In this document: positions 19,812 to 48,466 of the stretch, one piece after another
Position numbering within the stretch: the stretch's first letter is position 1
How the letters are laid out: each line of letters starts with the position of its first letter
Source: Owenia fusiformis
Lineage: Eukaryota > Annelida > Polychaeta > Sabellida > Oweniidae
Assembly (NCBI GenBank): GCA_903813345.2
Contig: CAIIXF020000005.1
Location: 40,463,394 to 40,527,393, forward strand
DNA length: 64,000 nt
Reading direction: 5' to 3'
Made by a program: the position numbers and the translations under genes
Notes under the pieces: generated by a model
Databases searched by the model: none
What the model was told of the DNA's origin: nothing
Seen by the model: only the letters and a program-made list of their open reading frames with translations

Positions 19812-22547
19812 ATGCCAGTGATTATAGCTTGGAGAGCACGTATTGGCCTCTTTAGTGGCAACTTAGGGTCACATAATAAATCAAACCATGTAACACCAAT
19901 GCCATCTATTTTTAATATGCATAACTATGTACATGGTTGTATAAGGATATTCCTTATTTGTCTTTTTGTCTTAATTCTCTTATCCACAGAGCTGCATTAT
20001 TTTATGTACATGTCGATCTTGTATGGATGTACATGTTTTTCTATACTGATATGGTATGGTTACGTTTTTACATCAATTTTGACATTTGTTCACCATAAAC
20101 ATAAATGTTATGGTACATTTTACATTCTGAAAATGTCACTCAGCACACTGATACTTGTGCTTATGGTATCATTTATATCATACACTCCGAACATTATACA
20201 AGCATTGCTTCGTCTTAGCAATGATGTCCATTTAAATCCAGGTCCCCAATTATCCACAAATCTTACTAATTTTGTCTTTTCAAACATTAATGGGATACGA
20301 GCTAATTATAATTCTAGATTTATAGCATTAAAGGATAGAATCCATGTCAATAAAAGCAAAATTGTAGGACTGTGTGAAGTTGGTAACCTTACCAAAAATA
20401 ATGTTTTAGAAAGTTATTCCATCAGTGGCTTTCATCCTCCAATATACTTGAATAAAAACCGTGGCTTAATAGTGTATGTTCAAGATGAGATCCCTTTTAA
20501 ATTAAGACCTGACTTAATGAATGATTTTGGTGATGCCATCTGGATTGAACTTAACATCAACAATAAATCTATCATTTATGGCATTTTTTATCGATCCCCA
20601 TCACAAAGCATGGAAGAATCAAACAATTTCTTTACAAGATTTTCAACATCGTGTGCCAATGCAATGAGTGCAAATAATGACTTAGTCTTAATTAACGGAG
20701 ATTTTAACGCAAGATGCAAAAAATGGTGGCAAGATGATCATGAAAACTCTGCAGGCCAAAAATTGTTTGATAACATTGAGGCTTTAGGACTTTTTCAAAT
20801 GATAGACGAGCCAACTCGTGTTACTCGTACTAGTAGGTCATGCATTGATCTGCTCCTTTCCAATAACCAAGATCTGATTTCTAATTTTTCTATTACCCCT
20901 CCTATTGGTAACACAGATCACTGCACTCTGTCAACTAACTGTTTCTTTGGCACTATAAAAGATGCTCCATACTCACGTAGATTATGGCATTATTCAAAAG
21001 CTGATATTACATTATTAAATGATGCCATTAGGAGAGCTCAATTTGATGACCTCATTGAATCTTCAAACAACATTGATGTTCTTGTTGATAATTTTAGCGA
21101 CAAGCTATTTGACATTTTTTTGGACCAAATTCCAAATACTATCGTAAATGTAAAAAGCTCAGATAAATCCTGGTTTAATCATAATATTAAGACTATGATT
21201 AACAAGAGAAACAAACTTCATTCCAAATATCGAAAATCTCACAATTTGACATACTTAAACAAATATAATGAGCAATGTACACTCGTAAATCAAGCAATAA
21301 ATGAGGCTAAAGATGCCTTTGACTCAAACATGCGGAAGAAATTAACAACTTTTAAATATGGCAGTATGTCATACTGGGCCATAATATCCAAACTTCTTGG
21401 CAAATCAAAAAATTCGAAAATACCGCTACTTTTTGACCAACATGGGAAATACATTGTTAAAGGCCATGACAAGGCAAATTTATTATTGTCTCATTTCATC
21501 AAAAATTTCCATCGTAACGATGATTTAGTGAACATCCAATTAGACCAAAGGACTGAAAACACTCTTAATATTTTATCTACTCACGAGGATGAAGTTTTTG
21601 AATTGTTACTTTCTCTTAATATAAACAAAGCCACAGGCCCTGATCAAATAAGTAACAGAATTTTAAAAATGGCAGCGCCAGCTCTTTCTGCATCCTTATC
21701 AAAATTAATTAACAAGATCTTTACCCTTAATTCATTTCCACAAAAATGGAAACTTGGTCACATTTTGCCTATTCATAAAAAAGGTGATAAAACTGATGTC
21801 AAAAACTATCGTCCAATTACTCTTCTTTGTTGTTTATCAAAAATAGCTGAACGCATTATTTTCAAAAGAATATTTGACCATCTCATCAGAAATGATCTGT
21901 TTTACAGCCTCCAAAGCGGTTTTCTTCCTGGTCATAGTACCCAATCTCAATTACTAAGCATAATAGATTATATCACTAATGAAATTGAAACAGGGGGGTG
22001 TGTGAGGGGTATTTATTTAGATATTTCAGCCGCTTTTGACACTTTACCACATTCATTACTATTAAAAAAGCTAGAATCATATGGTATTGGCCCTTCCATC
22101 CTATCCCTTTTAAAGTCATACCTCACAAATCGACGTGTCAAAGTAGTGCTTGATGGACAAGAATCGAACCTCTCAGATATGAATTATATCAACTCAGGCG
22201 TCCCTCAAGGATCAATCCTTGGTCCTTTACTGTTCCTAGTTTACATAAATGATCTTCCTGAGAACTTACACAGTAAATGTTACATATACGCAGACGACAC
22301 TTCTCTTTACCAGTCATTTAACCATGATAATTTACTTGAAAAAAATAATATTTTACAAAATGATTTGAATTCAATTTTCAACTGGTCAAACTTATGGAAA
22401 TTGAATTTCAAAGCTGAAAAAAGTAAGGACATTTTATTCTCAAACCCTCGTAAAGTAGTTTTACAAGTACCAGATCTAACTATTGGAAATAACTCTCTAC
22501 CTCGTGTTGACTATCACAAACATCTCGGCTTAGCAACATATAAATGA
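19812..22547 (+). CDS. LINE polyprotein: 2A-like motif, AP endonuclease and reverse transcriptase (broken near the C-terminus)
   Basis: The first 135 residues are strongly hydrophobic with several possible membrane segments. Residues 138-145 read DVHLNPGP, which keeps the NPGP core of 2A ribosome-skipping motifs but has His where the consensus has Glu. The endonuclease follows with SNINGI (about 157-162), CEV (188-190), INGDFNA and a TDHC motif carrying the catalytic His. The reverse transcriptase has the segments NKATGPD, LDISAAFDTLPH, SGVPQGS (795-801) and YADD (826-829). The frame ends early because sequence is missing after HLGL. The start chosen is the first ATG in the frame; initiation further in is possible. 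Confidence 0.92.
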   Translation: MPVIIAWRARIGLFSGNLGSHNKSNHVTPMPSIFNMHNYVHGCIRIFLICLFVLILLSTELHYFMYMSILYGCTCFSILIWYGYVFTSILTFVHHKHKCYGTFYILKMSLSTLILVLMVSFISYTPNIIQALLRLSNDVHLNPGPQLSTNLTNFVFSNINGIRANYNSRFIALKDRIHVNKSKIVGLCEVGNLTKNNVLESYSISGFHPPIYLNKNRGLIVYVQDEIPFKLRPDLMNDFGDAIWIELNINNKSIIYGIFYRSPSQSMEESNNFFTRFSTSCANAMSANNDLVLINGDFNARCKKWWQDDHENSAGQKLFDNIEALGLFQMIDEPTRVTRTSRSCIDLLLSNNQDLISNFSITPPIGNTDHCTLSTNCFFGTIKDAPYSRRLWHYSKADITLLNDAIRRAQFDDLIESSNNIDVLVDNFSDKLFDIFLDQIPNTIVNVKSSDKSWFNHNIKTMINKRNKLHSKYRKSHNLTYLNKYNEQCTLVNQAINEAKDAFDSNMRKKLTTFKYGSMSYWAIISKLLGKSKNSKIPLLFDQHGKYIVKGHDKANLLLSHFIKNFHRNDDLVNIQLDQRTENTLNILSTHEDEVFELLLSLNINKATGPDQISNRILKMAAPALSASLSKLINKIFTLNSFPQKWKLGHILPIHKKGDKTDVKNYRPITLLCCLSKIAERIIFKRIFDHLIRNDLFYSLQSGFLPGHSTQSQLLSIIDYITNEIETGGCVRGIYLDISAAFDTLPHSLLLKKLESYGIGPSILSLLKSYLTNRRVKVVLDGQESNLSDMNYINSGVPQGSILGPLLFLVYINDLPENLHSKCYIYADDTSLYQSFNHDNLLEKNNILQNDLNSIFNWSNLWKLNFKAEKSKDILFSNPRKVVLQVPDLTIGNNSLPRVDYHKHLGLATYK

Positions 22548-23457
22548 ACTATACAAAAAAGTTGAAAAGCACTTAAACCCACTCAGATCACTCCAAAAGA
22601 AATTAGGAGGTAGACACTTGGAACTAATTTTCAAGTCATTTGTTCTCCCGATTTTTGACTATTGTGATATCCTCTACTCATGCGCAAACTTATCAAAATT
22701 AAAATTAATTGATCAGCTTTATTATAAGGCAGCCTGCATATGCTCTGGAGTCATTCATGGTACATCATGTACTAAAGTTTTGAACTGTTTAAATTGGACA
22801 TCATTAGCAGAAAGACGCAAATATCACCGCAATATTCTTGTATTTAGATCGCAGAATAATTTGTTACCATCATATGTTTCAAGTATTTTCCAAAGATTTC
22901 GTAGACATCATACAGTTAATGTTCGACGAATTGCTCCTTTCCAAATCCCAACAAAAATTACATCATTTTCACATCGATCCTGTATTTTACAAGCTATGAT
23001 AGATTGGAATACCCTTTCAAAGCCCCTCACAGAAGCTGAAAATTTAAGTATATTTAAGTCAAGGGCAAAGAAAGAGTTATCTAATTCAATTATTCGATCC
23101 TCTGAACTTAATATTTCAAGAAATCAAGAAATTATACTTAACAAGGTTCGTTGTGACTTAATTTTTAAGTCCCATCTATACTCTCATAATTTTACAAACG
23201 TTACTTCACCTGCATGTTCTTGTGGCCATGCAAATGAAACAACAATTCATGTCATTTTTTCCTGTATTCTCCGTGCTCCATTCTTAGAAGAGTTGGAAAA
23301 CAATTTAGCTTTTCTTAATTTTGGTTATTCTCAATTCAAACACAAGAGGGACAAAGTAGAATTATTTCTTTATGGGGATTCAAACTTAACTAAATCCACT
23401 AATTTGAAAATTCTCAAGCTCACTGCATCATTTTTAGAAAAATGTGCAAATGTGTAG
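22548..23457 (+). pseudogene. Detached C-terminal part of the LINE polyprotein
   Basis: From about 22550 the sequence resumes in another frame with NELYKKVEKHLNPL and later CSCGHANETTIHVIFSC, a Cys/His cluster common at the end of such polyproteins. About ten to fifteen residues that normally join the two parts appear to be deleted near 22540, which shifts the frame. This makes the copy non-autonomous as read. Confidence 0.85.
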
Positions 23458-30829: not shown

Positions 30830-33800
30830 ATGCTGTCCAATGATAGGAAAGCTCTTTTTTGTGTGTCCGTTGTTACTGTTCTAGCTATACAGGTAAGTAT
30901 CAACTTGTAACCATCCCAGGACAATATTTGAAATGGGAGAATTTTGTAGACCTCTTTTATGATTTATAAGTTAGTCAGCTAGATGTATGTACAAAGCCTT
31001 GTTTTGAAAAATGGCCGGCATTTTTATGTGTGGTTTTTTATGTTTTTTACTATAACTCAAAAAGAAGTAGAGCCATTTTGTTCATATTTGATATGTGAAT
31101 ACCCATAAGGATGGCACACTGTCTTATGACACTTTGGCTAGTAGGCAGCCATTCTGAAAATTAGCCACCATTTACATATACGTGTGTGTGATTTTATTGA
31201 AATTTTATATGTGCCTACTTATATCACACTTTCTGATGACAATTTGGCTAGTGAGCGACCATTTTGAAAATGGTGGCCATTTTTATGTGTGTTATTTTAC
31301 GATTTTTGCCATAACTGGAAAAGTAGTAGCGTGATTTTGTAAAAAATGGCTGTTCGAAGGGTTTTGGAACGTTCGTCGCTTTGGCAGTGTTGTTATCTAC
31401 TTAATACTTCATTGCAAACCACGAATCAAAAAAATTCAGTTGCTCAAACCTCAGCTTTAGTTTAGTATTATAACCACCTTGGAAGTGGAAGGTGAGAATT
31501 TCCTACATTGACATACATACACCAGTCAAATAATATATCTTTTGTTCTCTCTGATGTTATTATAATGACATATCAGTCACCTTTAAATAGCGATAGCCTT
31601 CAATTTTATTCTTTTATTACTCTATTTTTATTTGTTCTAATTTTAGGGTATTCCAGCACACTTTCTGAAGTAATATTGTGCACTTCTTATTCTTTTCCTT
31701 GCAGTACCATGATTATTAATTAGTTTTGTAAACATTTTCAGCCATCCGCACAGAAGTCAGTGTCAACAACACAGCAGTCGATGTCAACAGCAGTCATCCC
31801 AACAAAATGTGTTCCCAAGATTAAACCTCCAGGAAACACAGTAAGAAATATATAATCAGTTGTCAGATCTACCATCAGGAATTTCTACACATACACACAC
31901 ATATTATACCTTCAAATGCCTTAATAGTATTAATGAAAATCACAAGTTATAGTCTTATCAATGGATCTATATGTACTGATACTGAATTCAAAATGGCTGC
32001 TTTTTTTTAAAAAAATGCTAATTTTGGTAAATACTGCAGATTGGATTATATCAAAATTAGGCGAAATCTTATCAGAATAAGTCTTCTGCTCAAAATGAGT
32101 TTCATTCATGGTTGTTCCATTCAAAATGGCTGCCACTTTTGTAAAACAAAATCATGAATGAGTTAAATGCCAGTTGTCAAATTATGTTTTATGTGCTGTC
32201 ATATAGGCATTTGACTCTGCTTGAGAAGGAATTTTCAAGGCGGTTGCTGAATACAAAAATTTCAATCATTTCTCAGGAGAAATATAATTTCATGAAATAT
32301 TCAAAATTACGAGTAATCTGAAGTATTGTCTGGTGGGATCTGCTATTCCAAGGAGTTACTGTTTCTTATTCTAGTTTTAACTTTATTTTCAGTGCAACAG
32401 AACTCAGTATTACGATGAGATGAACTTTGATTGTCGACCTTGCAGTCGATGTTGTAAGTATTCTGGAGTGGTATCAGAATGTGAAGATGGGTGCATGCCA
32501 TCTTCTCACACATGTGCAGAGGAAGACAAATGCAGAGGTAAGTAAATATTGAAGCAACATGCAACACTTTTGCTCCCTCCCAAACCTCCCTTTATTGTAA
32601 CTAGACATTTTTATTAATGCTTTGATTAGCTAGTGTTGGGATTATTTGGTTTGAATGGTCCTTTTTCCATATGGCTTTGAAATCTCGTAAAGTCTCATTT
32701 TTAATGAGATTTTAGGAGATCTGCATTTTTTACCATTAAAGACTAACGTTTTCTCCTATTTGATGGCATATTTGAATTCTATGTGTAATTTTCTATCAAA
32801 ACAATTTTGATTTGCACCATTATTTATATTTAAAATAAAAATTATATCCTACAGCCCAAACAAATCTTTTTTATCATTTGTGTTAAATTAGTATATGTTC
32901 ATGTTCTGGGGGATGCTGCCAGTCTATAAGAATTGTGTCTTTAAATTATACAAAAAAATCAAAGAACAATAAGATTCACTGTGAGAATTGAAAACATTTC
33001 TGATTATTGTGCACCCTTCATGACACAGAAATGTTACCCTGTCTTTCACTTTTCATTTTCAAGGATGTTATGACTTTTTGATTGTATTAACTAAATTTAA
33101 TGTTTTCAGTGCATTGCGGCCCACCTCCAGTTCTTGACCAACCCAATTATAAACCAAGCCTAAAAGAGTATGACGAGTATGATGTTGTGAAATATTATTG
33201 CCCACCAGGATATATGTTGTCTGAGAATGTTACATCACAATGTGTTGAACCTGGGAATTGGTACCCAGTTCCCCCATCGTGTCTTAAAGGCAAGTCTGTT
33301 ATTTAAAATTGAGTTTAATCATATTATTTATTGGCTCGTGCTGAGGCAAGAGCCATATCTCACTTGGATATAGTAGTAAGTGATAACGACAATGCACTGA
33401 GGTTTAAACGTTAGTTTACTAGTAGAAAACCTGATGGGTTAATATTTGTTGATGAAAATGAGTTAATTCCTCGAGCAAAAGTTTAATCCTAAGGTGTTAG
33501 TTTATAATAAAATTGCGTTAGAGAGGGTTTCAAACGACAATATGCACATTTTACAACAACACCATGAATTCTGCGCACTGGTTTTCGGCAATATGATATG
33601 ACAGAAATACGAGCGACTTCTTGATTTAGAATTGTGAACAATTTACAGCATTAAAAAAACTCCGAACATTTAACTATTTTATTAATATCTTCGGAGAACG
33701 AGAATCAAATTGACCCATCTTCACTTTTAGATATGTTCGGATGTTTTCTAAGAGGTCCAGGTACTCAGACCTTCACAATTTAAAGATCTTAATCAGTTCA

Positions 33801-36800
33801 AAATGTTCGTATTTTTTCTACTTTTGCTGTTCGGTAAATTACAACCGCGTTAAAAGTAAGCATCCCTATTTATCAATACAATTCATTACAACACTGCAAA
33901 CATCGCCTTCATTTTTATCCCATCGAACGAAGTTCGGAGGGATATAGGGAACGCCTCCGTCCGTCCGTACGTACGTACGTCCGTCCGTCTGTCTGTCTGT
34001 CTGTCCGTCCGTCCGGGCAATAACTCAAATACCGTTGGCCCGATTTTGTTCATATTTTGTACACATATACCCTATGGGAGTAGAAGTTCTGCTCGAAAGC
34101 TGATTTTCAAAATGGCCGCTCATTTCAAAATGGCGGCCATTTTAGTGCCGATTTTATAGTAATTTAGGTGCAATATGTAAAACTGTAATAGCAAAATGTT
34201 TTAAATGTAAAAAAATTATAAAGGACATTAATAATGCTACAAATGTAGATATTAAAGAAGCACATGGCAGCCATCTTGAAAAATGGCAGCCTTTACTCGT
34301 CATTTTATGATTTTTGCTGTAACTCAAAAAATAGTGGAGCGATTTTGCTCATATTTGGTATGTGAATACTATAAGCATTGCACACTGTCTAAAGACACTT
34401 TTGGTAGAAGGCGGCCATTTTGAAAAATGGTCGCCATTTTAACGTATTTTACTATAACTCGAAAAGTAGTGGAGCGATTTTGTTCATATTTGGTATGTGA
34501 ATACTATAAGCATGGCATACTGTCCTATGACACTTTTGGTAGAAGGCGGCCATTTTGAGAAAAATTTTGAAAAATGGCCACCATTTTAAGTATTTTATTT
34601 TAGCTCGAAAAGTAGTGGAGCGATTTTGTTCATATTTGGTATGTGAATACTATAAGCATGGCACACTGTCTATTTCTAATGACACTTTTGGTAGAAGGTG
34701 GCCATCTTGAAAATGGCCGCAATTTTAACGTATTTTACTATAACTCGAAAAGTAGTGGAGCGATTTTGTTCATATTTGATATGTGAATACTTTAAGCATG
34801 GCACATTGTCTAATAAAACTTTGGGGAGTAGTCGGCCATTTTGAAAAATGGCCACCATTTTTATGTGTGTTATTTTACAAGTACGTGTGCGATTTGATTT
34901 TTCAAAAATTTTAGAGGTGGCTACTTAAAAGCATATTATTTCTTCTGATGACAACTTGGCTAGTGAGCAACCATTTTGAAAATGGTGGCCTATCTAGTGT
35001 GTTGTTTTATGATATTTGCTATATTCGTTTGTAAAAAATGCCAGCCATTTCTGTTCGATGGGATTTGCTACGCTTTGGCGTTGCCGTTGTTCTGGTTTTA
35101 AAATGATCTCTAGTTTATCATTTATATCTGGAGCTCAGGTTGTTAATTAATTTAATACAACAATTACAATTGTATCTTTATGATTGTGGAGTGATTGGAC
35201 GTCTTCATAAAATGTGGACCCAATAGTCACTGATGTGAGAGGCACCCTCATTGGTACTGCCCTGGGGAGGTGGCTCCCTTGCCAGTCACCAACAATTCCC
35301 CTGATGCCGCCCTTACAATGCCGCAAAATTGAGATTCAATCATTTATGTAATATTATGGTTATAAGGAAATGTAGTATTGGTGGTTTCTTATCTTTTACT
35401 TGTACGGATTGGTTTTAAATTCTAGATATATTTCCTACTTATGACTCAAGAGAGTCAGTTTTTTGCATGCTGGTATTAATTAAGGTGGTCAACTCATTGT
35501 GATTTGAAAATTAAAAAATGTTGGCCATTTTGCAATTTTGTCTTTAAATTTCGTCTGATCAGTTTTTGAGAATGTATGTAAATTGGATGGTGGCGAATTT
35601 TATTTTTAGGCTTGTCCATAATCCTTTTTGTAATTTCCTGGTTACTGTCATATGGATTGATTTCATATTTCTGAGGATGCAGAACTAGCTGCAGCATTGG
35701 CAAAACAATTTACAGGTAGATTATGAAAAAACAATGCAAAAAGGATTTTATCATTCTATTATATTACAGGAATACTTTAACATGTTTTTCAGTATATCAT
35801 TGTGAACAGCCTCCTCGTGTTGACTATGCCAGCTATGTTCCTGAGAAAGACAGATACGATGTCATGGAAAATATAACATTCTCCTGTGCTGATTTTCACA
35901 AACTATCTGGCAACATGACAATATATTGTGGACCAACTGGAGAATGGTTCAAGCTTCCATCATGTGATCTTGGTAGGCCAATTAGTTCAGAAGTGAGATA
36001 GGGATATGTGAAGCCCTCCATCCGCCAATATAATTTTCTCTCTGTCTTTCAAACCAAAGCATAATTCAATATTTGCAGACTGATATTCTTCATATTTCTT
36101 AGAAAGCATAATATACCTTAATGTACGAGGGTTGTCCCAGAAGTAATGCACTATATGCTCTAACTTTCTTTACTATTCTTCGATTCAGCTGAAAATTTGT
36201 GTATATAACAATTGAAGTGTTATCTATTATATCCTGAAGTTTCAGCATCAAACATTAATATTAAGTCTTAATCTGGTTGCTATAGCAACATTGGGGTAGG
36301 GGTGGGCGGGGCAGGTACCAATTTTTCTAATTATGAAAAGATCCAAAGTGTTATTTTATTAATATTTCTTTCTTTTAAATGATCAAAATGTTTTGGAAAT
36401 TGTTTAATTTATTCAGCATGATGTTAACCAAGTACAAATAATGACATTTTACACTCTGGTGTCATAATACCACAGTTCAATAGTCACAAATTCGAATGCA
36501 GTCACTGTCAAGAAGTTTCAAAAAGGCTGCAATTATCATCTGATAACAGAAGGCCTTGCGTTTGGTGGCCTAATTTCATACTTCATTGGACTCACAGCCA
36601 CGCAAGACTTATGCTACTATGAAGAAAGTATAAAAGGAGTATATTACATAGAGAACTACAATTATGAGGTGGCAGAAGAGATTCAAAAGAGATGACTGGA
36701 TCCAAGATGACAACTCCAAACATGAGAGGTGAAAACTCCACAAGTCACAGTGGAAGAAATTGCCAAGAGTGTTTGACCTGACAGGCATCAAAAGTACATA

Positions 36801-39800
36801 ACATGCAAAGGGCAATATTTTGAGAAAATGTGAAATGGGACACTGTGCAATATACATCAATTAAATCTAGGATGTGCTCATAGTAATTTAGTATCTTAAA
36901 ATGTATTTTTGAGCATACTTCTCATAGCTACACAAAATGGTATTTGTTGATTAATTATTTCATATTTTCAATTTTTATTCCTTTTGACGTGACTGTTTAA
37001 CCTGCCCCACCCTACCCAAACTCACCAACTTGATTTTATTATAACATTAATATCGTTTTATCAGTCAACATGAAAATTTGTAGAATAATCAAAAAGTCTC
37101 AACGGAACATTTACTGAAATTTTCATGGAAAAATATCAATTATTGATAAAGTCAAAGCATATTACTTTTGGGACAACCCTCGTACTTAAATTATTAAGAT
37201 CAAAAAAGATCTCCAAAGTTTAGCTTTAATATGCACAAAGGAAAAGTATTTTAGAGTAGATTGCAGTCATTGTATATTTTACCTAAAAAAGGTAAAATAT
37301 TGTCGTCAGTTTGACAGCGGGGGGGGGGGGGGGGGGGGCGTACGGCATCTCACTTTCTTCTCATCATGATTCCAGGAAAACCAATTATTGGATTTACCTC
37401 ATATTTGCACACATGTTTCATGGTAAGAAGTTGTAGAGCTAATTAATTTTTCAGTGGCCATCTTACATTTTAGTGGCCATCTTGGAAGTTTTTAGATAAA
37501 TCTTGTCACCGCAATTCCAGGAAAACCACTTAAAGGGTGACGCATATCGTTTAGCAAATCGAACGCTCGTTTCTGGTGTTGCTCACCGTTTAGTATAAAA
37601 GGCCCGATCCCGGAATAATACTCAAGGGTTCACAGGTTCGAGGTCGTTGTGTCAACACCTCTAACTGTTATATAGCATAAGTATATTATAGATTGTCACA
37701 CATTTATAAAAGGGTGATTTTTATTTTGACAAATCAATTCCACATTTATGGGTGAAGTTTCAGGATCTTCTATTTGTGTATAATAAGGAAAAATTGGCAT
37801 CTAAATTTCCCCATAACGTAATAGCACACAGCTTGGCATATGAAATATCCTACAAATGAAACAAAGCAGTTCTAATACAAGGATTTATATTGGCTGTTGT
37901 GCATGTATTCTTTGAACGCAATCACTCTATGGATAACGTTTTCAAAATCATTATAAACGGATTACGTTATCTCAAACACAATTTCAATAAACTGGATTTT
38001 ACAGAACTCCCCTTATTTCTAAAAAATGGACTGATCCAGTTGACTCGCCTGGAGCCACCATATTGTTTTTATACGGGAAGCTTATCGGAACCCTTTAATG
38101 GATTTACTTCAAATTTTCACAAGTGTTACATGGTAAGTTCTAGAGCTGATTAACTTTTTGGCAGCCATCTTGCAATTCTGGCAGCCATTTTGCATTCTGG
38201 CATCCATTTTGGAAGTTTTTAGATAAATCTTGTCATCTCGATTCCAGGAAAACCACTTAACAGATTTTCTTCAAATTTATACACATGTTACATGGTTAGA
38301 AGTTCTAGAACTGATTAATTTTTGAATGGCCATCTTGCTTTCTGGGTCATCAAGCCCACACTATTATGTTTTAGGTACGATATTGTCCACCCTGTGCCTT
38401 GTTATCCCATCGAACGAAGTTCGAAGGGATATAGGGAACGCCTCCGTCCGTCCGTCAATACGTATGTACGTACGGACGTTCGAACATCAGTCCGTCCGGG
38501 CAATAACTCAAATACCGTTGGCCTGATTTTGTTCATATTTTGTACACATATACCCTATGGGGGTAGAAGTTCTGCTTGAAAGGCGATTTTCAAAATGGCC
38601 GCTCATTTAAAAATGGCGGCCATTTTAGTGCCCATTTTACAGTAATTTAGGTGCAATATGTTAAACTGTAATATGTTAAACTGGAATTGTAGATATTAAA
38701 GAAGCACATGGCAGCCATCTGGAAAATGGCGGCCTTTACTCGTTACTTTACGATTTTTGCTGTAACTCGAAAAGTAGTGGAGCAATTTTGTTCATATTTG
38801 GTATGTGAATACTATAAGCATGGCACACTGTCTAATGACACTATAGTTAGAAGGCAGCCATTTTTCAAAATGGCTGCCACTTTTAAAAACAGCCACCATT
38901 TTAATGTACTTTACTATAACTCGAAAAGTAGTGGAGCGATTTTGTTCATATTTGGTATGTGAATACTATAAGCGTGGCACACTGTCTAATGACACTTTTG
39001 GTAGAAGGGGGCCATTTTTCAAAATGGCTGTCATTTTAACGTATTTTACTATAACTCGAAAAGTAGTGGAGCGATTTTGTTCATATTTGGTATGTGAATA
39101 CTAAAAGCATGACACACTATCCTATGACACTTTTAGTAGAAGGCGGCCATTTTTCAAATGGCCACCATTTTAACATATTTTACTATAACTCAAAAAGTAG
39201 TGGAGCGATTTTGTTCATATTTGGTATGTGAATACTATAAGCATGGCACACTGTCTAATGACACTTTTGGTAGAAGGTGGCCATTTTGAAAAATGGCTGC
39301 AATTTTTGCAATATACTTTGTTTGTAAATATGCCAGCCATGGCTGTTTGATGGGATTTGCTACGCTTTGGCATTGCTCTTGTCTAGTATTTATTTTTGCT
39401 TCATAAAAAAACAAAAATGCCTGCCTTCAAGATTGGAAGTTTAGCTTTATTATACTTCAATTAAAGGTATCATTTAGTAGATGACAGATATTGTATTTGT
39501 TTTTTTTTAAATTGCTGCCAAAACAGGAATTCCTGTCACTTTTGAGATCTCTTCAAAGTATGGCTTCATAACTTCCAGTTATCAAATCCTCCAAGTTTGT
39601 TTTTTATTAATATGCATAGAAACTACTATGCATAGAAAAGTCCCATTTTTGTAAATATTGTAAAATTATGCTATGTAGAACTAACACAGGAAAAATCATA
39701 GCTTTATAAATATGTAACAGCTTTCGCATTTTGACAAATGTGGGATAACATATTGCCTAGATACAGAGTAAATACATTAGGATTCACTGTAGGAGCAGTG

Positions 39801-42800
39801 GTCCCTTTAAGTAATGGAATATATTTTGTCTTTCCAGATCTACATACTTGATTCCCATCTTGTCTTGAGCCATCTCAAGATGGAAGATCGTGATTATTTT
39901 TAGTAGTACAAATATTATCGAAAATGATTAATGGCCATTTTTATACACTATAATGATTAACTTACCCAGCAATCAAAATAATGTGCTCCAAAAAGAAGTG
40001 AATAGATGTATCACAGCTTGAGACATTTAATTTGAATACAACAAATGTGAGAATATTTCCGAATGATTAAAGTTGTAATGTTTTTTTTTTCATTTTAGAG
40101 GTATGGAAAGTAGTAGCAGTTTGTGTTGGCATCTTAGCAATGATAGCACTAGGGCTGGTGACATTATATTGTATACTTAAGAGTGAGTTCCATTACTTTA
40201 ACTGATTATATTTTTATCGCACTTTGAAAAAGTGCTATATTGTCGTCGTCTTGTGCTGTTGGGCGGGCGGGCGGGCGGGACATAAACCAAATCTTGTCAT
40301 CAAATTTCCAGGATAACTGCTTACCTGTACAACTTGAAATTTTTACAGATGCAAGAGCAGACTAGTACCAAGATCTGATTAGGTTAAGGGCATGCTGGGT
40401 AAACTACGTGGCGGCCATTTTGAATTTTTCAACAAATCTTGTCATCAAAATTCCAGGAAAACCACTTATCCGTTCAACTTGAAATTTTTACAGATGCAAG
40501 AGCAGACTATTGCCAAGATCTGACTATGTTTTGGGTATGCTGGCTGAATTACATGGTGGCCATTTTGAATTTTTCAATTTGGCGGCCATTTTGAATTTTT
40601 CAACTTGCTCCAAATTGGCCAAATTTTTTTTTTAAAAACATCTACAAGTTCTCAGAAGTTCAAATCTGACCTTAGATTTTAGATTTGACCTTTCATTCAC
40701 CTTCAGTGACCTTGAAAAGGTCAAAAAAGTTGATTTTCTAAATTGATATTTTGGATTTAAATTTAGGTCAGCTTAATTACAAAACACCTACTGAGGTCTG
40801 AAAAAGTGAAATTTTCAAGGTCGAAGGTCAAGGTCATTAAACTAGGTCACAAATGATGTTATCCAAGTTTCTCAAAGTTTGAGACTACAAATCAATTCTT
40901 GTCATCAAAATTCCAAGAAAACCGCTAACCTGTTCAACTTGAAATTTTTTACACATGCAATAGCAGACTAGTGCCAAGATCTGATTAGGTTAAAGGCATG
41001 CTGGGTAAACTACGTGGCGGCCATTTTGAATTTTTCAACAAATCTTGTCATCAAAATTCCAGGAAAACCACTTATCCGTTCAACTTGAAATTTTTACAGA
41101 TGCAAGAGCAGACTATTGCCAAGATCTGATTAGGTTTTGGGTATGCTGGCTGAATTACATGGTGGCCATTTTGAATTTTTCAATTTGGCGGCCATTTTGA
41201 ATTTTTCAACTTGCTCCAAATTGACCAAATTGTTTTTTTAAAAACATCTACAAGTTCTCAGAAGTTCAAATCTGACCTTAGATTTCAGATTTGACCTTTC
41301 ATTCACCTTCAGTGACCTTGAAAAGGTCAAAAAAGTTGATTTTCTAAATTGATATTTTGGATTTAAATTTAGGTCAGCTTAATTACAAAACACCTACTGA
41401 GGTCTGAAAAAGTGAAATTTTCAAGGTCGAAGGACAAGGTCATTAAACTAGGTCACAAATGATGTTATCCAAGTTTCTCAAAGTTTGAGACTACAAATCA
41501 ATTCTTGTCATCATAATTCCAAGAAAACCGCTAACCTGTTCAACTTGAAATTTTTACACATGCAATAGCAGACTAGTGCCAAGATCTGATTAGGTTAAGG
41601 GCATGCTGGGTAAACTACGTGGCGGCCATTTTGAATTTTTCAACAAATCTTGTCATCAAAATTCCAGGAAAACCACTTATCCGTTCAATTTGAAATTTTT
41701 ACAGATGCAAGAGCAGACTATTGTCAAGATCTGATTAGGTTTTGGGTATGCTGGCTGAATTACATGGTGGCCATTTTGAATTTTTCAATTTTGTGGCCAT
41801 TTTGAATTTTTCAACTTGCTCCAAATTGACCAAATTGTTTTTTTGAAAACATCTACAAGTTCTCAGAAGTTCAAATCTGACCTTAGATTTCAGATTTGAC
41901 CTTTCGTTCACCTTCAGAGACCTTGAAAAGGTCAAAAAGTTGATTTTCTAAATTGATATTTTGGATTTAAATTTAGGTCAGCTTAATTACAAAACACCTA
42001 CTGAGGTCTGAAAAAGTGAAATTTTCAAGGTCGAAGGTCATCAAATTAGGTCACAAACAATGTTATCTAAATTTTCCCAAAGTTCAAGACTACAAATAAA
42101 TTCTTGTCATCAAAATTGCAGGAAAACCGCTAACCTTGTCAACTTGAAATGTTTACAGATGCAAGAGCAGACTAGTGCCAAGGTCTGATTAGGTTTTGGC
42201 CATGCTGGGTAAATTGCATGGAGGCCAGTTTGCTCTTCAAAGTGCGATATTTATCACTGTGTGTCTTGTTTTATCACACCATTGGTGGGATATAGTCATC
42301 ATGATGAAGGCATTATCGTGATCATGATCGTCCCGCTTTTTTGTCATCACGATTCCAGGAAAACCCCTCATCAGATTTTCTCTTAATCTATACACATGAT
42401 AGAGGATATCAAGTTCTAGAACTGATTAACTTTTGGGTGGCCATCTAGTTTTCTGGCGGCCATTTTGAAGGTTTTTCGATAAACTTGTCATCGCCATTTC
42501 AGGAAAACCACGCATTAGATTATCTCTACATTCGCACACATGTTAGAGGATATAAAGTTCTAGAGCTGATTAACTTTTGGGTGGCCATCTTGTTTTCTGG
42601 CGGCTATTTTGAAGGTTTCTTGATAAATCTTATCATCATCATTTCAGGAAAACCGCCCATGGGATTTTCTCAAAATTCGCACACATGATAGAGGATATCA
42701 AGTTCTAGACCTGATTAACTTTTGGGCGGCCATCTTGTTTTAGGGCCTGATAACAAAGAGACAACATTTTATCTTCAGTGTACCAATATGATTACTATTT

Positions 42801-45800
42801 ATTACCTTCTCAAATATGTCATCTCCTAAAAGATCCTATCAAATGATGAGGTATTTCAGTGAATTCTCCCATCTGATAAATGCTGTGCCCTCAATTATAA
42901 AGAAATGAACATATAAACACTAAAATCTATAGCTGTGCTTTCTCTTTAATAAAGTATGAACAACATTCTCATCTTAATCTTCAGACAATCAGAAGTATTT
43001 TTAACTTCCATTATCTATCATATTGACACTTAAGCGGTTAGAAAATTCAAAATACAATAAGGTCATCTTCATCATTTCCACTTCAGATATCGATCTAAAG
43101 TTATACTTGTGATTTTCATTTGATGATAGATCATCATTTTTTGTGTAAAAGCTGTCTAAAAGACTTGAGAATTAAAAGATTTTCTGGTTCAGTGTCGAAA
43201 CGAAACACTTAAGTTTGAACATTTCCTTTATTCATTTTGGACTATTTTGAGAGAATATCAATTCAGTTTGGTGTGCAAAGAGACCAATGATAATCACGAT
43301 GCCCATGTCAAGCAGCGTGCCTACTAGGCACGCAGTTTGAAACTCTGACAAACTGCGCGCATATTTCAAAATGTGAGACGGGGAGGACACGACTCCCAAA
43401 AAGAGCCAAAATACGAAAAATACAAGGTTAGTCTCGTTCTAAAGATAGTACCATTCTGTGAAGATGAACTTAATTTACTCATAGTACTCAATGTTTTTCC
43501 CGATCTAAACCTAGTTATCTCAATATAAGGGTCTTAAGTAACTTCTGTGTTCAAAATTTACAGTGTAAAGTTATATCTATGTCTTTTTATCGTCATTTGC
43601 CGTTTATTCAGCCATTGTGTCTGTGTATGCTAGAATATATAGGATCACTCCATCTGATTAAAGCAGCAAAGTTTGTGTTCAAAAAGATAATACGCCATAA
43701 ACGTGATTTAAACATTTTTCTTGTCAAACTGCGCGCCTATATTCACATGTATTTCCCAAACTGCGTGCCTAATATTTCCAAACTGCTTGCCAATCCAAGC
43801 TTGTTTTTTATTATTAGAAAACATAAGCGCCATTCAAGGCACATATGTGTCTAATAGTAGAACCCCATAATTGAAACACTATGAGAGTCCATCCACCAAG
43901 ATGGTGATCTGAAAATAAAAGTTTTTTTCGTTCCCAACTTAATTGTCACTTCTATTATACATTTTGACTTTCAATATGAAAATCTCATAAAATCTGACGA
44001 TAAAGCAAAATTTCCAAAGCTACATCGAAAACACCTACACGTGCCTCTGTAGAAATTACAATGATAATATGTACTTTTAATAGTGTATGTGCACAGATTG
44101 TAATTTCTGGCTAAAATAGGCGCGCAGTTTGTGGTTTATTTCTTTTTAATCTCCTGATTATCTGTTTTATCTCGAAATATTTTGAATTATACATGATAAA
44201 TGTGTAAGGAATTAAATATAAAACGAGTCTAAAGTATTTGTCATTTATGTTTAAAGTGCTAGATCGATTTACGTATAAATTCCCGTTAAATCAGTGACGA
44301 AAATGCCATTAATCTGCTTATGTTTTAAAACTAAGATTCATTTGCACACAGTTTTTCCTAGTATTTGCAAGATTCGTATGTTCGCAACAGAATGAACGCA
44401 TTGAACAAGAAAACAATGCAGGATAAATGTCTTTAAATAACGTTTCAAAATACAGACTCCAACTTAAATGATCCAATGTTCTTAGGCACGCAGTTTGTGA
44501 TCGAAACAAACTGCGCGCCTAAGTAGGCACGCAGCTTGACATGGGCACCGTGATAATTAATCGAGAGGATGCATCGAATTATAAAATCTGCCATTTTACT
44601 GCATTGAATACTCTTTATCGCCCATTCTTTAGAAATTCAATCTTTTTCTGAATTTTTCAATAAAACTTGGTCATTCCTTAATATTTCTTGAACTTGGTGA
44701 TTCAAATTTTGAAGTGAAAAAATGGTGGATATATTGTTTTGAATTTTGTTATCATGACATGACTATGTGATAATAAGGTCATAACACCATACATGGCATA
44801 TATGTTGCACTCTCGGAGTCAATCCTCCTTGCTTGAAAGTATAAGAGTATTTTTGAAAATGCACATCTCAAATTTTTTCCAAAAAATTAAATTCTAAGAA
44901 AGTAAAGTAGATAGGCCAAAGTAGGGTTTTTAAAAGTTCAGGTGGATGATTACATATTACAAATATAAAATCAAAGTCTGTTCTTTTGCAGTGAATGTAG
45001 TTAAGTAAAACCAAAAACATCAATTTTAAAATGTTTCTAGATGATAAAAAATTGATAATATTTTGATTTTTTCTAGAAAAAAGAGAAAAGAAGCAGAGGA
45101 AACTAGTTGAGGGAAAACAGAAGGCTGAAAAGAAATTAAGAAGTAAAAACTATTTTATTTTACCCTATTCAGTAGTCAGATACAAGCTTTGCCATTAATA
45201 GTTGAACGGAAGAAAGGATTTATAAAATAGTCTAAAATTGAAGTTCATATTTTGCATATAATGATTTTATATCATATTTATGATCTTATCTATATGGGAC
45301 CAATGCAGAAGATCGATGTCAGATAATTCAATTACATTTGATAGTTAGGTGGAGGAGAGTATAAATGTATCAAATAGTTAAGTTCTGCCAACACCGATTA
45401 TTGAATTCCCGGGAATCATCATCATGGTCATTTTATCTAGTGTAGGTCCTCCATGTTGCTCAGAAAAAGAAAAAAACTTTTATCTTAAATCATATAAAAC
45501 TTTGTCAAAGAGGAATATAAAGCCAATTTACAGTAATCCTACAAAAGATTATGAAAGACTAGTGACCAAGTTTTGGAGTGACTCATTGGTAACGGGTAAG
45601 AAAAAAGCAAAATCGTCTCTTAAGCAACTGAAAGTAGTGGAGTGATTTTGTTAATTATTTGATATGTGAATACTAATGAGCATGTTTTATGGAGACACAC
45701 AACCTATTGATCCTTCCGCCGATCCTTCCGCCGAGTGGGAAGACGAATAGATGGCATTACAAAAACAAAAATAAAGTCCAATTATTGTAATTATCCCACC

Positions 45801-48466
45801 GAACGAAGTTCGAGGGGGATAAAGAAAAGCCGTCCGTCCGTTCGTCCGTCTGTTCGTGTGTCCGGGAAATAACTCAAAACCGGTTGATGGATTTCATTCA
45901 AATTTTATAGGCTTATGCCTTATGGGTGTAGGACCTCTGCTCGAGAAGGAATTTTCAATATGGCCACTAAATTAAAAATGGCAGCCTTGCTGAAGAAGAC
46001 ATTTCCAAGATGGCCGCCATATTTCAAAATGGCAGCCATTTTTCGTAAAAAAACATTATCTTTGATAACTCAAATACTATTGAATGGATTTGGATCAAAT
46101 TTTATATGCTGCTGCCTGGGTACAAAGGAGCCTTGCTCAAGAAGACATTTTCAAGATGGCCACCATATTTCAAAATGGCGTAAAAAAAATGTTATCTTTG
46201 ATAACTGGTATACCATTGAATGGATTTGTTTCAAATTTTACATGCTGATGCCTAGGGACATAGGAGCGCTGTTCAGGAAGGGATTTTCAAGATGGCAGCT
46301 AAATTTCAAAATGGCCGACATTTTTCATAAAAGAATGTAACCTTTGATAACTCAAATACCAGTTGATGGATTTGGTTCAAATTTTATATGCTGATGCCTA
46401 GAGACAAAGAGGTTGTGCTCAAGAAGACATTTTCAAGATGAAAAGAAGAAATCTAAAGATGACAGTTGAATTTCAAAATGGCAACCATGTTTCATAAAAA
46501 CACAATCTTTGATAACTCAAATACCAGTGGATGGATTTGGGTCAAATTTTATATGGCCGCTATTTATCAAAACATGTTTTGTTCGGTGGGATTTGCTACT
46601 CCGTGGAGTTGCTGTTTTTCTAGTTACATTAGCATCATCAGTGGTTGGATTTTGGTAAGTACATGAATGAAAAAGTGTATGTATAGACCAACTCTAAGAC
46701 ATGATTTGATGTGATTAAGGTGCATTTTCTTTAAAAAATTTGACCTTTTTGACCTGCCATCTGTCAAAATCCATCTGTCAAAATCAGAATGACATTTTTT
46801 GACATTTTCTATAGATGGCGTCTTCAACAGGTGAGATCTTTTGATTTTCGTGGGGAGTTTTGATTCAAACTTTTTTGACTGACAGAGGACATACTGGGGT
46901 ATGATGGAATGATAGCAAAACATGTCCACAAATCTTAGTTTTCTCTGGAAGACCGATCATTTGTATGGGAATACGCATGTTATAACAATTGGTTGGGTTA
47001 ACCCTATGTCACTTTGGCTAGAAGGTGGCCATTTTCAAAATGGCCACTAGTTTTATGTGTATTATTTTAGTTTTTTTTACTATAACTCAAAAGCTAATGG
47101 AGCAATTTTGTTCATATTTGATATGTGAATACTCATAAGCATGGCACACTGTCTAATGGCACTTTGGCTAGTAGGTGCCTATTTCTCAAAATAGCTGCCA
47201 TTTAATGTACATGTATGGTATGTGTGTGCGATTTGGTTGAAATTTTATGACAATTTGCTATCATACATGTGTATTCATTTGTTTATTTATTGTATCTTTC
47301 AGAGATTACCCAGCAAGTAAATGCTATAAAGCATTTTAAAGATTTGCCAAAGTCTGTAAGAGATGGCGTTATTTTACGATGTGAAGTTGCTGGTAAACCA
47401 TGGAAATCCTTATTCAGAAGGTTGGTCTAACATCACTTTGAGTTTTCACAATTTTCAAGTGTTAACTTTTTAGAGTGTTATGTTATATTATGTTACAGTC
47501 TTGTTATGCCACAGATTTTGATATTAATTTGTATATAAATAGTGTATGAGGTTTTATTTAATAATCTTTACCCTCCAAAGTACAAGCACTTTAGCTGAAA
47601 GAAAATACCAATGCACCACAGTACTCTAGATAAATTGCAACAAATACTTTCAATGATTTAATTTCTATGTCACAAGTGGTGACATATTGTTGTGACATAT
47701 TGTTGTCTCCAACTTTTTTGTGGATGGCAGTTGGTCTTCAGCGTTCAGTTCAGAGTTTGGTGATAGGTACCAGTAACAAATGGCATGCTGCCTGTAACAA
47801 ATGGCAGGTGGTGACATTTTGCATGTTAAGGCCTTGTACTATGAATGTGATATGAACTTGTTGAACCTAATGTTAAACTCTTCCTCTCAAGTACATATAT
47901 ATATTGAATATATCTCTCAATTATGTAGATAGAATATTTAGTATTTGAATCAATGATTTGATTTTAAAGCATCTACGACTTAGTGAAATCATCTTGTTTA
48001 TTTAGATACATGTACTGTATATATGTCTGTACGTATGCTCTTGCAATCTGAAAATTGTTGTTTGTCTTAACTTACCAAATAGAAAAATCAATTTCACACA
48101 CTGAACACTTTATTTACACAAAAAAAAACATTTGAGAAGAGTCCACAAATAAATGGAGAAAGCTGTTCCAAAAGTAGTGTTACATGTTACCCTGTATTAT
48201 ATTCCTATTGTAGGCTTGGGTTTGAGGACGAAATGCTAAGTTATTATGAAGGAAGGCAGGATCCATTTAAGGAGGGAATGGATGAACTAGCTACCCAAGG
48301 GAATGATGATATCACAGCTATTATGGAGGCAATGTTGTTGACAGTCGTACCTGAAAGCCTGGAAGATGGTTGTATTAAGGCCCTGGAATACCTCATTGAG
48401 TCCATTGATGGGGAAGATGTTGATGTGAATACCAATTCACAAGGGGATAATCTCCCACTTATATAA
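30830..48466 (+). CDS. Type I receptor: TNFR-type cysteine-rich module, two CCP/sushi domains, TM helix, death-domain-like C-terminus; complete, 10 coding exons
   Basis: Coding exons: 30830-30892, 31742-31840, 32393-32537, 33110-33289, 35793-35972, 40099-40182, 45077-45142, 45446-45595, 47303-47420, 48214-48466. Phases agree throughout; 1338 nt give 445 residues. All introns are GT-AG except intron 4, which starts GC. Residues 1-21 form a signal peptide (hydrophobic core FCVSVVTVLAI); 22-50 are a Ser/Thr/Gln linker; 55-102 are a Cys-rich module with YYD and CRPCSRCC, similar in spacing to TACI/BCMA-type TNFR modules. CCP domains occupy about 103-162 and 163-222, each with four Cys and a Trp before the last. 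A TM helix lies at about 227-248, then a Lys-rich stretch (251-273). Residues about 325-415 resemble a death domain (GKPWKSLFRRLGFEDEM). Sequons NRT, NVT, NIT and NMT lie in the ectodomain. A role in cell-surface recognition and death or NF-kB-type signalling is inferred from the domains only. Confidence 0.85.
31000..31350 (+). repeat. Solo fragment of the H1 internal tandem array
   Basis: About two and a half units with the phrases ataactcaaaaagaagtag, ttcatatttgatatgtgaa and tggcacactgtct match the interior of the H1 elements, but neither H1 terminus is present. It lies in intron 1 of the receptor gene. Confidence 0.7.
32393..32537 (+). CDS. Receptor exon 3: TNFR-like cysteine-rich module
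   Basis: The exon encodes 48 residues with nine Cys. The order is C-x4-YYD-x5-C-x2-C-x2-CC-x8-C-x3-C-x6-C-x5-C. C-x4-(Y/F)(Y/F)D-x5-C-x2-C followed by C-x3-C is the pattern of the short BCMA/TACI-type modules and of A1-type TNFR modules. One more Cys (TKC) lies just before it in exon 2. The family link is by pattern; a profile search would be needed for certainty. Confidence 0.7.
33110..33289 (+). CDS. Receptor exon 4: CCP/sushi domain 1
   Basis: The 180-nt exon runs from HCGPPP to PPSCLK, with the conserved Cys at its ends, KYYCPPGYM and SQCVEPGNWY inside, and the Trp between the third and fourth Cys. It is a symmetrical phase 1-1 exon, as usual for CCP modules. Its donor is AAAG|GCAAGT, a GC-AG type; using it keeps the frame into exon 5. 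Confidence 0.9.
33290..33917. other. Receptor intron sequence, nothing recognised
   Basis: There is a possible weak hairpin start near 33335 (ggctcgtgctgaggcaagagcc-like) but no matching terminus. No coding exon was found. Confidence 0.4.
33918..35095 (+). mobile_element. Helitron2-like element, family H1, copy 2
   Basis: It begins A|TCCCATCGAACGAAGTTCG followed by (CCGT)n/(CTGT)n. The inverted partner GTTCGATGGGAT lies 30 nt from the 3' end, then a hairpin (ACGCTTTGGCGT) and CTGG|T. The interior is a tandem array of about 135 bp per unit, containing gtagtggagcgattttgtt and aaaatggccaccatttt. It lies in receptor intron 4, in sense with the gene. Confidence 0.8.
35096..35792. other. Receptor intron sequence, nothing recognised
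   Basis: AT-rich sequence with no exon, no clear repeat terminus and no RNA gene. Confidence 0.4.
35793..35972 (+). CDS. Receptor exon 5: CCP/sushi domain 2
   Basis: Again 180 nt and phase 1-1. The module runs from HCEQPPRVDY to LPSCDL with FSCADFHKL and IYCGPTGEW inside, giving four Cys and the conserved Trp. The equal length of the two CCP exons suggests origin by exon duplication. Confidence 0.9.
36126..37182. mobile_element. Mariner-like element, 1057 bp, decayed
   Basis: The ends CGAGGGTTGTCCCAGAAGTA and the complement of CGAGGGTTGTCCCAAAAGTA are inverted repeats and TA flanks both sides (36124-36125, 37183-37184). The CGAGGGT...AGAAGTAA terminus is typical of mariner elements. I could not find transposase motifs in any frame, so the interior is degenerate or non-autonomous. 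It lies in receptor intron 5. Confidence 0.8.
37274..38350 (+). mobile_element. Helitron2-like element, family H3 (disrupted)
   Basis: The start shows a hairpin TTTTACC-taaaaa-GGTAAAA followed by ATATTGTCGTC, the same downstream motif as family H2, then a run of about 19 G. The interior repeats gattccaggaaaaccactt and agttctagagctgattaa with tggccatctt phrases. It is interrupted at about 37530-38090 by unrelated sequence. The 3' end is not resolved. It lies in receptor intron 5. Confidence 0.55.
38405..39386 (+). mobile_element. Helitron2-like element, family H1, copy 3
   Basis: It begins A|TCCCATCGAACGAAGTTCG; the inverted partner near the 3' end is GTTTGATGGGAT (one mismatch), followed by the hairpin region gctacgctttggca and CTAG|T. 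The interior array has about five units of the same 135-bp repeat as copy 2. It lies in receptor intron 5, in sense with the gene. Confidence 0.8.
40099..40182 (+). CDS. Receptor exon 6: transmembrane helix
   Basis: The 84-nt exon encodes EVWKVVAVCVGILAMIA and then LGLVTLYCILK. About 22 uncharged residues followed by Lys define one membrane-spanning helix with the basic side inside. Confidence 0.9.
40217..42268 (+). mobile_element. Helitron2-like element, family H2, copy 2
   Basis: It starts A|TCGCACTTTGAAAAAGTGC, a hairpin, followed by TATATTGTCGTCGTC and a (GGGC)n microsatellite. The inverted partner TTCAAAGTGCGAT lies about 30 nt inside the 3' end, which terminates CTTG|T. The interior has about three units of 605 bp with the phrases ggcggccattttgaatttt and aggtcagcttaattac. 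The match to 12845-14262 is inverted in the window but in the same sense relative to each host gene. It lies in receptor intron 6. Confidence 0.8.
42272..42745 (+). mobile_element. Helitron2-like fragment (family H6) with 130-bp array
   Basis: The opening ATCACACCATTGGTGGGATA has a short hairpin (CACC-ATT-GGTG) and then ATATAGTCATCATG, comparable to the ATATTGTCGTC of the other families. Three to four units with ttctggcggccattttga and aggaaaaccac follow; the same unit fills family H3. No 3' terminus was identified. Confidence 0.5.
43290..44556. mobile_element. TIR transposon with repeated GCGCAGTTTG subterminal motifs
   Basis: The ends are inverted repeats of at least 50 bp with the core GCCCATGTCAAGC(A/T)GCGTG; they extend outward to ATAATCACGATG on the left and its near complement on the right. 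About nine copies of the motif AAACTGCGCGCCTA (with small changes) occur in both orientations, clustered at both ends and also inside. A 91-residue frame at 43579-43854 has no recognisable domain. The superfamily is undetermined. It lies in receptor intron 6. Confidence 0.75.
44557..45076. other. Receptor intron sequence, nothing recognised
   Basis: AT-rich sequence leading into the polypyrimidine tract of exon 7. No repeat boundary or exon was seen. Confidence 0.4.
45077..45595 (+). CDS. Receptor exons 7 and 8: cytoplasmic linker
   Basis: Exon 7 (45077-45142) encodes a Lys-rich segment, KKREKKQRKLVEG. Exon 8 (45446-45595) uses the acceptor gtgtag just before GTCCTCC, since the alternative four bases upstream breaks the phase. 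It encodes SPPCCSEKEKNFYLKSY and then NPTKDYERLVTKFWSD. No known motif was recognised in either. Confidence 0.75.
45794..46623 (+). mobile_element. Helitron2-like element, family H1, copy 4
   Basis: It begins A|TCCCACCGAACGAAGTTCG followed by (CCGT)n. Near the 3' end are the partner GTTCGGTGGGAT, the hairpin ACTCCGTGGAGT and CTAG|T. The interior array unit (about 180 bp) contains tcaagatggcc and ttgataactcaaatacca and differs from the unit of copies 2 and 3. It lies in receptor intron 8, in sense with the gene. Confidence 0.8.
46985..47260 (+). repeat. Solo fragment of the H1 internal array
   Basis: About two units carrying actataactcaaaagctaat, ttcatatttgatatgtgaa and tggcacactgtct. No terminus was found. 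It lies in receptor intron 8. Confidence 0.65.
47303..48466 (+). CDS. Receptor exons 9 and 10: death-domain-like region
   Basis: Exon 9 (47303-47420) and exon 10 (48214-48466) encode an acidic, helical segment. The stretch GKPWKSLFRRLGF matches the W-x2-L-x3-LG pattern of helix 2 in death domains, followed by SYYEG and a run of amphipathic helices ending KALEYLIES. The fold family is plausible but diverged; DED or CARD are less likely alternatives. The stop is at 48464-48466. Confidence 0.6.
47667..47836 (+). mobile_element. Short Helitron2-like element, family H4
   Basis: The hairpin ATGTCAC-aa-GTGGTGACAT is followed by ATTGTTGTGACATATTGTTG, then gtaacaaatggcaggtgg, and the inverted partner GGTGGTGACA. 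The 3' end is CCTTG|T. At about 170 bp it has no internal array and is the most compact member. It lies in receptor intron 9. Confidence 0.65.

Follow-up and report, generated by a model that had tools for sequence, protein, structure and literature searches.

We identified, in a 64,000-nucleotide stretch of the Owenia fusiformis genome (498 Mb, 525 contigs) that we call the window (C5:40463394-40527393), a gene for a membrane receptor that appears to be a variant of the TNF receptor (TNFR) superfamily. Its sequence supports an order of domains within one protein that runs from a signal peptide through a cysteine-rich domain (CRD), two CCP/sushi domains, a transmembrane (TM) helix and a basic stretch to a tail resembling a death domain (DD). 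The reading frame is open, the CRD and CCP domains are homologous to known ones, and paralogs in the same genome carry the same joins. A TNF-type ligand probably clusters the receptor, which probably signals through death-domain adaptors.

Rebuilt exon by exon, the gene forms a single open frame from an ATG at 30830 to a TAA at 48466 across nine phase-matched exons, all on the forward (+) strand. Exon 1 (30830-30892) provides the start codon and a signal-peptide-like core of 21 residues, and was placed by its ATG, its hydrophobic stretch and a GTAAGT donor in phase 0; exon 2 (31742-31840) is a Thr/Ser-rich spacer ending in TKCVPKIKPPGNT; and exon 3 (32393-32537; 145 nt, phase 0>1) encodes the CRD, with nine cysteines and a Y-[YW]-D-x-M motif. 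Two CCP exons follow (33110-33289 and 35793-35972, the latter matched by Pfam at residues 166-220), both of phase 1>1 and both recognized with the Pfam Sushi model. Exon 6 (40099-40182, phase 1>1) has about 22 hydrophobic residues and then KKKREKK, from which we assign the TM helix and stop-transfer signal, and exon 7 (45077-45142, phase 1>1) is a short, basic juxtamembrane stretch. The death-domain-like region is divided between exon 8 (47303-47420; 118 nt, phase 1>2), which holds putative helices 1-2, and exon 9 (48214-48466), which holds the remainder, the C-terminus and the TAA stop. The phases of the eight introns are 0, 0, then 1 five times, and finally 2 within the death-like region; all eight acceptors are AG and seven of the donors are GT, among them two weak ones (gtaaaa and gttggt), the eighth being a GC donor (gcaagt) after the first CCP exon. 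Introns of 4.1, 4.9 and 2.2 kb set apart the second CCP, the TM helix, the basic exon and the tail. By reading of the sequence, the signal-like N-terminus and the one hydrophobic exon with basic residues after it would suit a type I single-pass protein. Exon 7 is the least certain of the nine exons; it had no counterpart among the matches listed for the paralogs.

The earlier note on this DNA had described ten exons with matching phases and a complete protein of 445 residues. Nine of those exons hold in an open, phase-matched frame, but the tenth, at 45446-45595 (+), is a fragment of a dispersed repeat and probably non-coding, and was rejected. The stretch at 45440-45620 aligns with six further genomic sites at 73-80% DNA identity (two on C1 and one each on C3, C4, C8 and C10). 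Five of these alignments extend past the putative donor, and the five protein-level copies listed (C2, C3, C4, C8 and C10) each contain at least one in-frame stop. Being of phase 1-1, the segment can be dropped from the gene model, and given that it is a repeat fragment we take the protein to be 395 residues long. Shorter variants with an acceptor at 45464 fall within the same repeat and were likewise set aside. The segment at 45446-45595 may be an exonised repeat.

Several other elements were recorded in the window. A LINE-type retrotransposon occupies 19812-23457 (+), with endonuclease and reverse transcriptase in one ORF (19812-22547; RVT_1 E 3.2e-33) and a second ORF after it (22618-23457). 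Large repeats of several hundred bases are visible by eye at 40290-42250, in the intron that follows exon 6, and at 60567-62021 there is a repetitive stretch in which three overlapping ORFs are open, on both strands (QIFHIMCITGIVLNPSQR and others). The left flank has an ORF at 9486-9884 (-) that matches the F-box model in two stretches (E 2.9e-12) as well as a WD40 ORF, and together these are perhaps one F-box/WD40 gene; the right flank has HEAT-like ORFs with HEAT_2 matches at E 4.3e-6 and 0.0011, both below the Pfam cut-off.

Two paralogous loci lie on the same chromosome as the window. Locus A (C5:2.737-2.739 Mb) reads as one stop-free frame of 451 residues with seven phase-matched junctions in about 3 kb, in the order CRD1, CCP1, a short Cys exon, CRD2, CCP2, TM helix, linker and then the first part of a death domain. 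The short Cys exon (TDCVKKPKPPGFQ) precedes CRD2 and is equivalent to exon 2 of the window gene, and both CRD exons of locus A share with the window the length of 145 nt and the phase 0>1. The death domain of locus A is incomplete in the assembly, where it runs into a stretch of N; the piece that is present is 62% identical over 37 residues to a death domain (Pfam E 4.2e-6) at a further locus described below, locus C, and on this resemblance we regard it as of another type than the window tail. Locus B (C5:8.282 Mb) comprises, within about 4 kb, a CRD exon (0>1), a TM exon (1>1), a charged cytosolic exon (1>1), a first death-like exon (1>2) and a last exon (2>stop); no match to a CCP was found between its CRD and its TM helix. 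The first death-like exon has 118 nt and phase 1>2 in both the window and locus B, and the tail is split at the same place in both. When the locus B protein was searched against the genome at E <= 10, eight places were returned, namely four in locus B itself, one in the window, two in locus A and one weak match on C1.

The extracellular module is supported as TNFR-type by profile comparison. Protein searches with the CRD exon found three further copies, of which locus A contributes two (55% and 49% identical) and locus B one (32%). A profile built from the window CRD and these three copies matched 11 PDB sequences at E <= 10; the top 10 are all BCMA (TNFRSF17), with a best E of 1.8e-5. As a control, the columns of the profile were permuted three times while those with cysteine in at least three of the four copies were kept fixed; these permutations returned 2, 1 and 0 PDB matches, with a best E of 0.13 and BCMA in none, which argues that the match to BCMA does not come from cysteine spacing alone. 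The pattern of TNFR cysteines by which an extracellular CRD is assigned to the superfamily is thus found with the four-copy profile, and the single sequence falls below the Pfam cut-off: on its own the window CRD matched BCMA in the PDB at E 0.43 and Pfam TNFR_c6 at E 0.0045-0.0064. Of the four CRDs, two matched Pfam BCMA-Tall_bind (best E 9.9e-5), that of the window not among them, and a prediction of the single CRD exon gave no usable structural model (pLDDT 49.8). Across the genome, Pfam TNFR_c6 matched 13 places at E <= 0.1, none of them on C5 and hence neither the window nor loci A and B, which indicates that this model misses CRDs of the window type. The TNFR-type module proposed in the earlier note is therefore upheld, and on the profile evidence can be named more narrowly as BCMA-like.

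The conserved hairpin of this domain provides a lead to the ligand. In the motif Y-x-D-x-M, the D and the M are invariant in all four CRDs. According to the available part of PMC8024323, the tip of a hairpin with an Asp-x-Leu type motif is the main ligand contact in Fn14, BCMA and TACI, and the available part of PMC5865128 places the DXL motif of TACI in a pocket of BAFF. As far as these sources describe it, the invariant D and M of the window CRD family fall at the position of the D-x-L ligand-contact motif of BCMA and TACI. Since the hairpin residues that contact the ligand in BCMA and TACI are conserved here in related form, we consider a TNF-type ligand likelier than the complement-style recognition that, in the earlier note, could be linked to death or NF-kB-type signalling.

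With moderate confidence we favour a reading in which this one gene encodes a 395-residue type I membrane receptor that takes a TNF-type ligand on its CRD, carries that CRD on a CCP stalk, and recruits a death-domain adaptor through clustered tails. A trimeric TNF-family ligand would dock on the hairpin of the one CRD, at the N-terminus. The pair of CCPs, serving as a stiff stalk or a second binding surface, would keep that CRD at a distance from the membrane. The ligand would gather three receptors into a cluster, and the clustered tails would recruit a death-domain adaptor, leading to caspase or NF-kB/JNK-type signalling. We infer the ligand, the clustering, the adaptor and the output. Candidate partners are encoded in the genome, so that such a pathway could exist: TNF ligands were found at 14 places over the cut-off (two of which, on C92, score identically), DED at 12 places, 10 of them over the cut-off, and death domains at 99 places at E <= 0.1. 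One DED (C7:19783407(-)) is separated by about 1 kb from the top-ranked death domain (C7:19782252(-)) in a FADD-like arrangement (C7:19782252-19783601).

A separate observation concerns C2, where places matching TNFR_c6 and TNF ligands are intermixed in three regions (17.16-17.19, 20.14-20.21 and 29.28-29.30 Mb), often on opposite strands and a few kb apart. Ligand and receptor genes thus appear to be interleaved there; six of the seven TNFR places in these regions are below the Pfam cut-off.

Both CCP domains of the earlier note are confirmed. Two stretches score above the Pfam Sushi cut-off, with an E of 1e-13 for the whole protein, and the four cysteines and one tryptophan that define the domain are invariant in all five aligned CCPs. 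The GC donor of the first CCP exon is shared with both CCP exons of locus A; in two further loci, C and D, the CCP exons carry GT donors. Locus C (C5:37.29-37.32 Mb) contains, in order over about 26 kb, an Ig-like exon, a CCP, a TM helix and two death domains over the Pfam cut-off; the linkage of these exons is putative, and no CRD was found in the stretch read. Locus D (C4:8735900-8742900 (-)) is a CCP-TM receptor gene, again with putative exon linkage, that is present as a tandem duplicate at C4:8.738 and 8.743 Mb; the CCP, TM and linker are 100% identical between the two copies, the CCP matches lying 4,704 bases apart. An Ig-like fragment (I-set 22.9 bits, against a Pfam cut-off of 23.7) is found upstream of one copy and a 12-residue piece of the same upstream of the other, and no death domain was seen in the stretch read. 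The genome-wide Sushi search scored 150 of 976 candidates, and the absence of a locus from it carries no meaning.

The main rival to a mechanism driven by a TNF ligand gives these CCPs the leading role. The same protein would then be a pattern receptor with death-domain output, in which complement-like opsonins or microbial surfaces are recognized by the CCPs, with the CRD confined to pre-assembling the chains. It possesses two full CCPs, and similar CCPs accompany a CRD in locus A and Ig-like exons in loci C and D, a distribution that suggests that the CCP is more than a spacer. Paralog B, however, has no CCP that we could find between CRD and TM helix, from which we take the CCP to be dispensable in this receptor family, and the CRD retains its ligand-contact hairpin residues; we therefore consider a CCP-based sensor unlikely, and a ligand-clustered receptor is retained as the preferred reading.

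The tail is divergent, and here the death fold is only partly established. The earlier note had called it death-domain-like. The Pfam Death model matched exons 8 and 9 at E 0.049 (14.2 bits), below its cut-off of 22.6, and had no match at all to the tail of paralog B. Searched alone against the PDB, the window tail returned seven sequences at E <= 10, of which p75NTR took the fifth and sixth places (E 0.40 and 0.43) after unrelated proteins; a profile of the window and B tails returned five, led by the unrelated Glr2806 (E 0.00099, with no stretch passing alone) and followed by three entries of TNFR1 (E 0.59 to 0.87). We used hhalign against 22 other death domains of the same genome, comprising 20 places from the genome-wide search and two from locus C, and obtained probabilities of 80 for the window tail alone, 72.5 for the window and B tails together and 25.5 for the B tail alone, whereas the highest values among 200 residue shuffles of the window tail and 200 column shuffles of the pair were 7.9 and 3.3, respectively. 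The aligned part covers no more than 22-26 columns, around helices 2-3 with the W..L...LG core. Modelled by itself, the last exon was predicted to form three helices (mean pLDDT 61.2) but gave no usable structure, and Foldseek with that prediction returned one match, at E 3.9. Judged by these comparisons, the death-domain reading of the tail stands above chance, exceeding all 200 of its shuffles, yet is incomplete, with a score under the Pfam Death cut-off.

One may postulate that such a tail has lost death-domain signalling and that the receptor is a decoy or a regulator. The distance of the tail from canonical death domains and its sub-threshold Pfam score are in keeping with this, as is the absence of a tryptophan that, by eye, is found in the fourth helix of most other death domains of the genome. 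The tail is nevertheless conserved with that of paralog B, at 42% identity overall and 41% over 71 columns between exon 9 and its B counterpart, including a W-K-x-L-F-x-x-L-G core. Such conservation argues for a retained function, and we regard a decoy or regulatory role as improbable beside a signalling receptor.

The paralogs also bear on whether the exons belong together. Locus A links the CRD to CCPs and locus B links the CRD to the same kind of tail, which supports both the domain order and the single gene that the earlier note had read. That two neighbouring genes were joined in error, one for a CRD-CCP-CCP-TM receptor ending near 40182 and the other for a cytosolic death-fold protein (45077-48466), is very improbable, for while the 4.9-kb intron contains repeats, exon 7 is short and basic, and the window gene was read from genomic DNA alone, some 4 kb of paralog B include both the homologous CRD and the homologous tail, some 3 kb of paralog A include CRD-CCP together with a death-domain start, and the phases match in both.

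Tentatively, the loci may reflect a wider process, one that we hold to be possible rather than probable, in which this lineage assembled a family of death-domain receptors from phase 1-1 modules through exon shuffling, placing BCMA-like or Ig-like domains with CCPs on at least two types of death domain. If such a shuffled family is real, a TNF-type signal and complement-type recognition could be integrated in one chain. Death domains at C10:33328303 and C87:29482 resemble the second death domain of locus C; beside them, no CCP or CRD was found among the matches listed save a 14-residue CCP piece at chance level on C10 (E 0.023). Contig C44 begins inside a death domain that also resembles the second of locus C.

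Among known receptors, BCMA (TNFRSF17) and TACI, which bind through a single CRD, are the closest in their extracellular part. Like the window receptor they have a small CRD with the pattern C-x4-Y-x-D-x-[LM]...C-x-P-C, and BCMA is the best PDB match of the profile. BCMA has the architecture CRD-TM-TRAF-binding tail, and neither BCMA nor TACI is known to have a CCP or a death domain; the window receptor differs in having a CRD exon with nine cysteines that is followed by two CCPs, and its two CCPs and death-domain-like tail rule it out as a BCMA orthologue. With TNFR1 and p75NTR (TNFRSF1A and TNFRSF16) it would share a TM helix and a cytosolic domain of the death type, and these are the closest receptor matches of its tail, though weak ones (E 0.59 and 0.40). 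TNFR1 and p75NTR have several stacked CRDs and a canonical death domain, and are not known to carry CCPs.

Invertebrate receptors offer further parallels. Drosophila Grindelwald is, like the window receptor, a single-CRD invertebrate TNFR with an X2-type hairpin, but the domain structure described in the available part of PMC8024323 includes neither a death domain nor a CCP, and the hairpin lacks the Asp-x-Leu motif; Grindelwald was not among the 11 PDB matches of the CRD profile. The amphioxus TNFR-caspase hybrids likewise join a TNFR ectodomain to an unusual module through domain shuffling, but their intracellular module is a caspase and not a death domain, according to the available part of PMC2575513, whose main text mentions neither CCP nor sushi. 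Locus C of the same genome resembles the window receptor in having a CCP of the same kind, a TM helix and two downstream death domains over the Pfam cut-off, and differs in its Ig-like exon, its other types of death domain and, within the stretch read, the lack of any CRD found. Among the matches listed in the open literature, we found no description of a TNFR-type module, CCPs and a death domain in one receptor, and the available parts of PMC2575513, PMC11797021, PMC11788884, PMC4979521, PMC4346834, PMC9334734 and PMC8024323 contain none. Since shuffling of immune-receptor modules is already known in an invertebrate, the amphioxus, from what is available of PMC2575513, the surprise is moderate. 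If real as a protein, the window receptor would nonetheless widen the known architectures of the TNFR superfamily, by placing a BCMA-like CRD in an animal receptor that also bears CCPs and a death-like tail, and it would provide a natural test of whether CCP stalks alter the ligand range or the clustering of death receptors.
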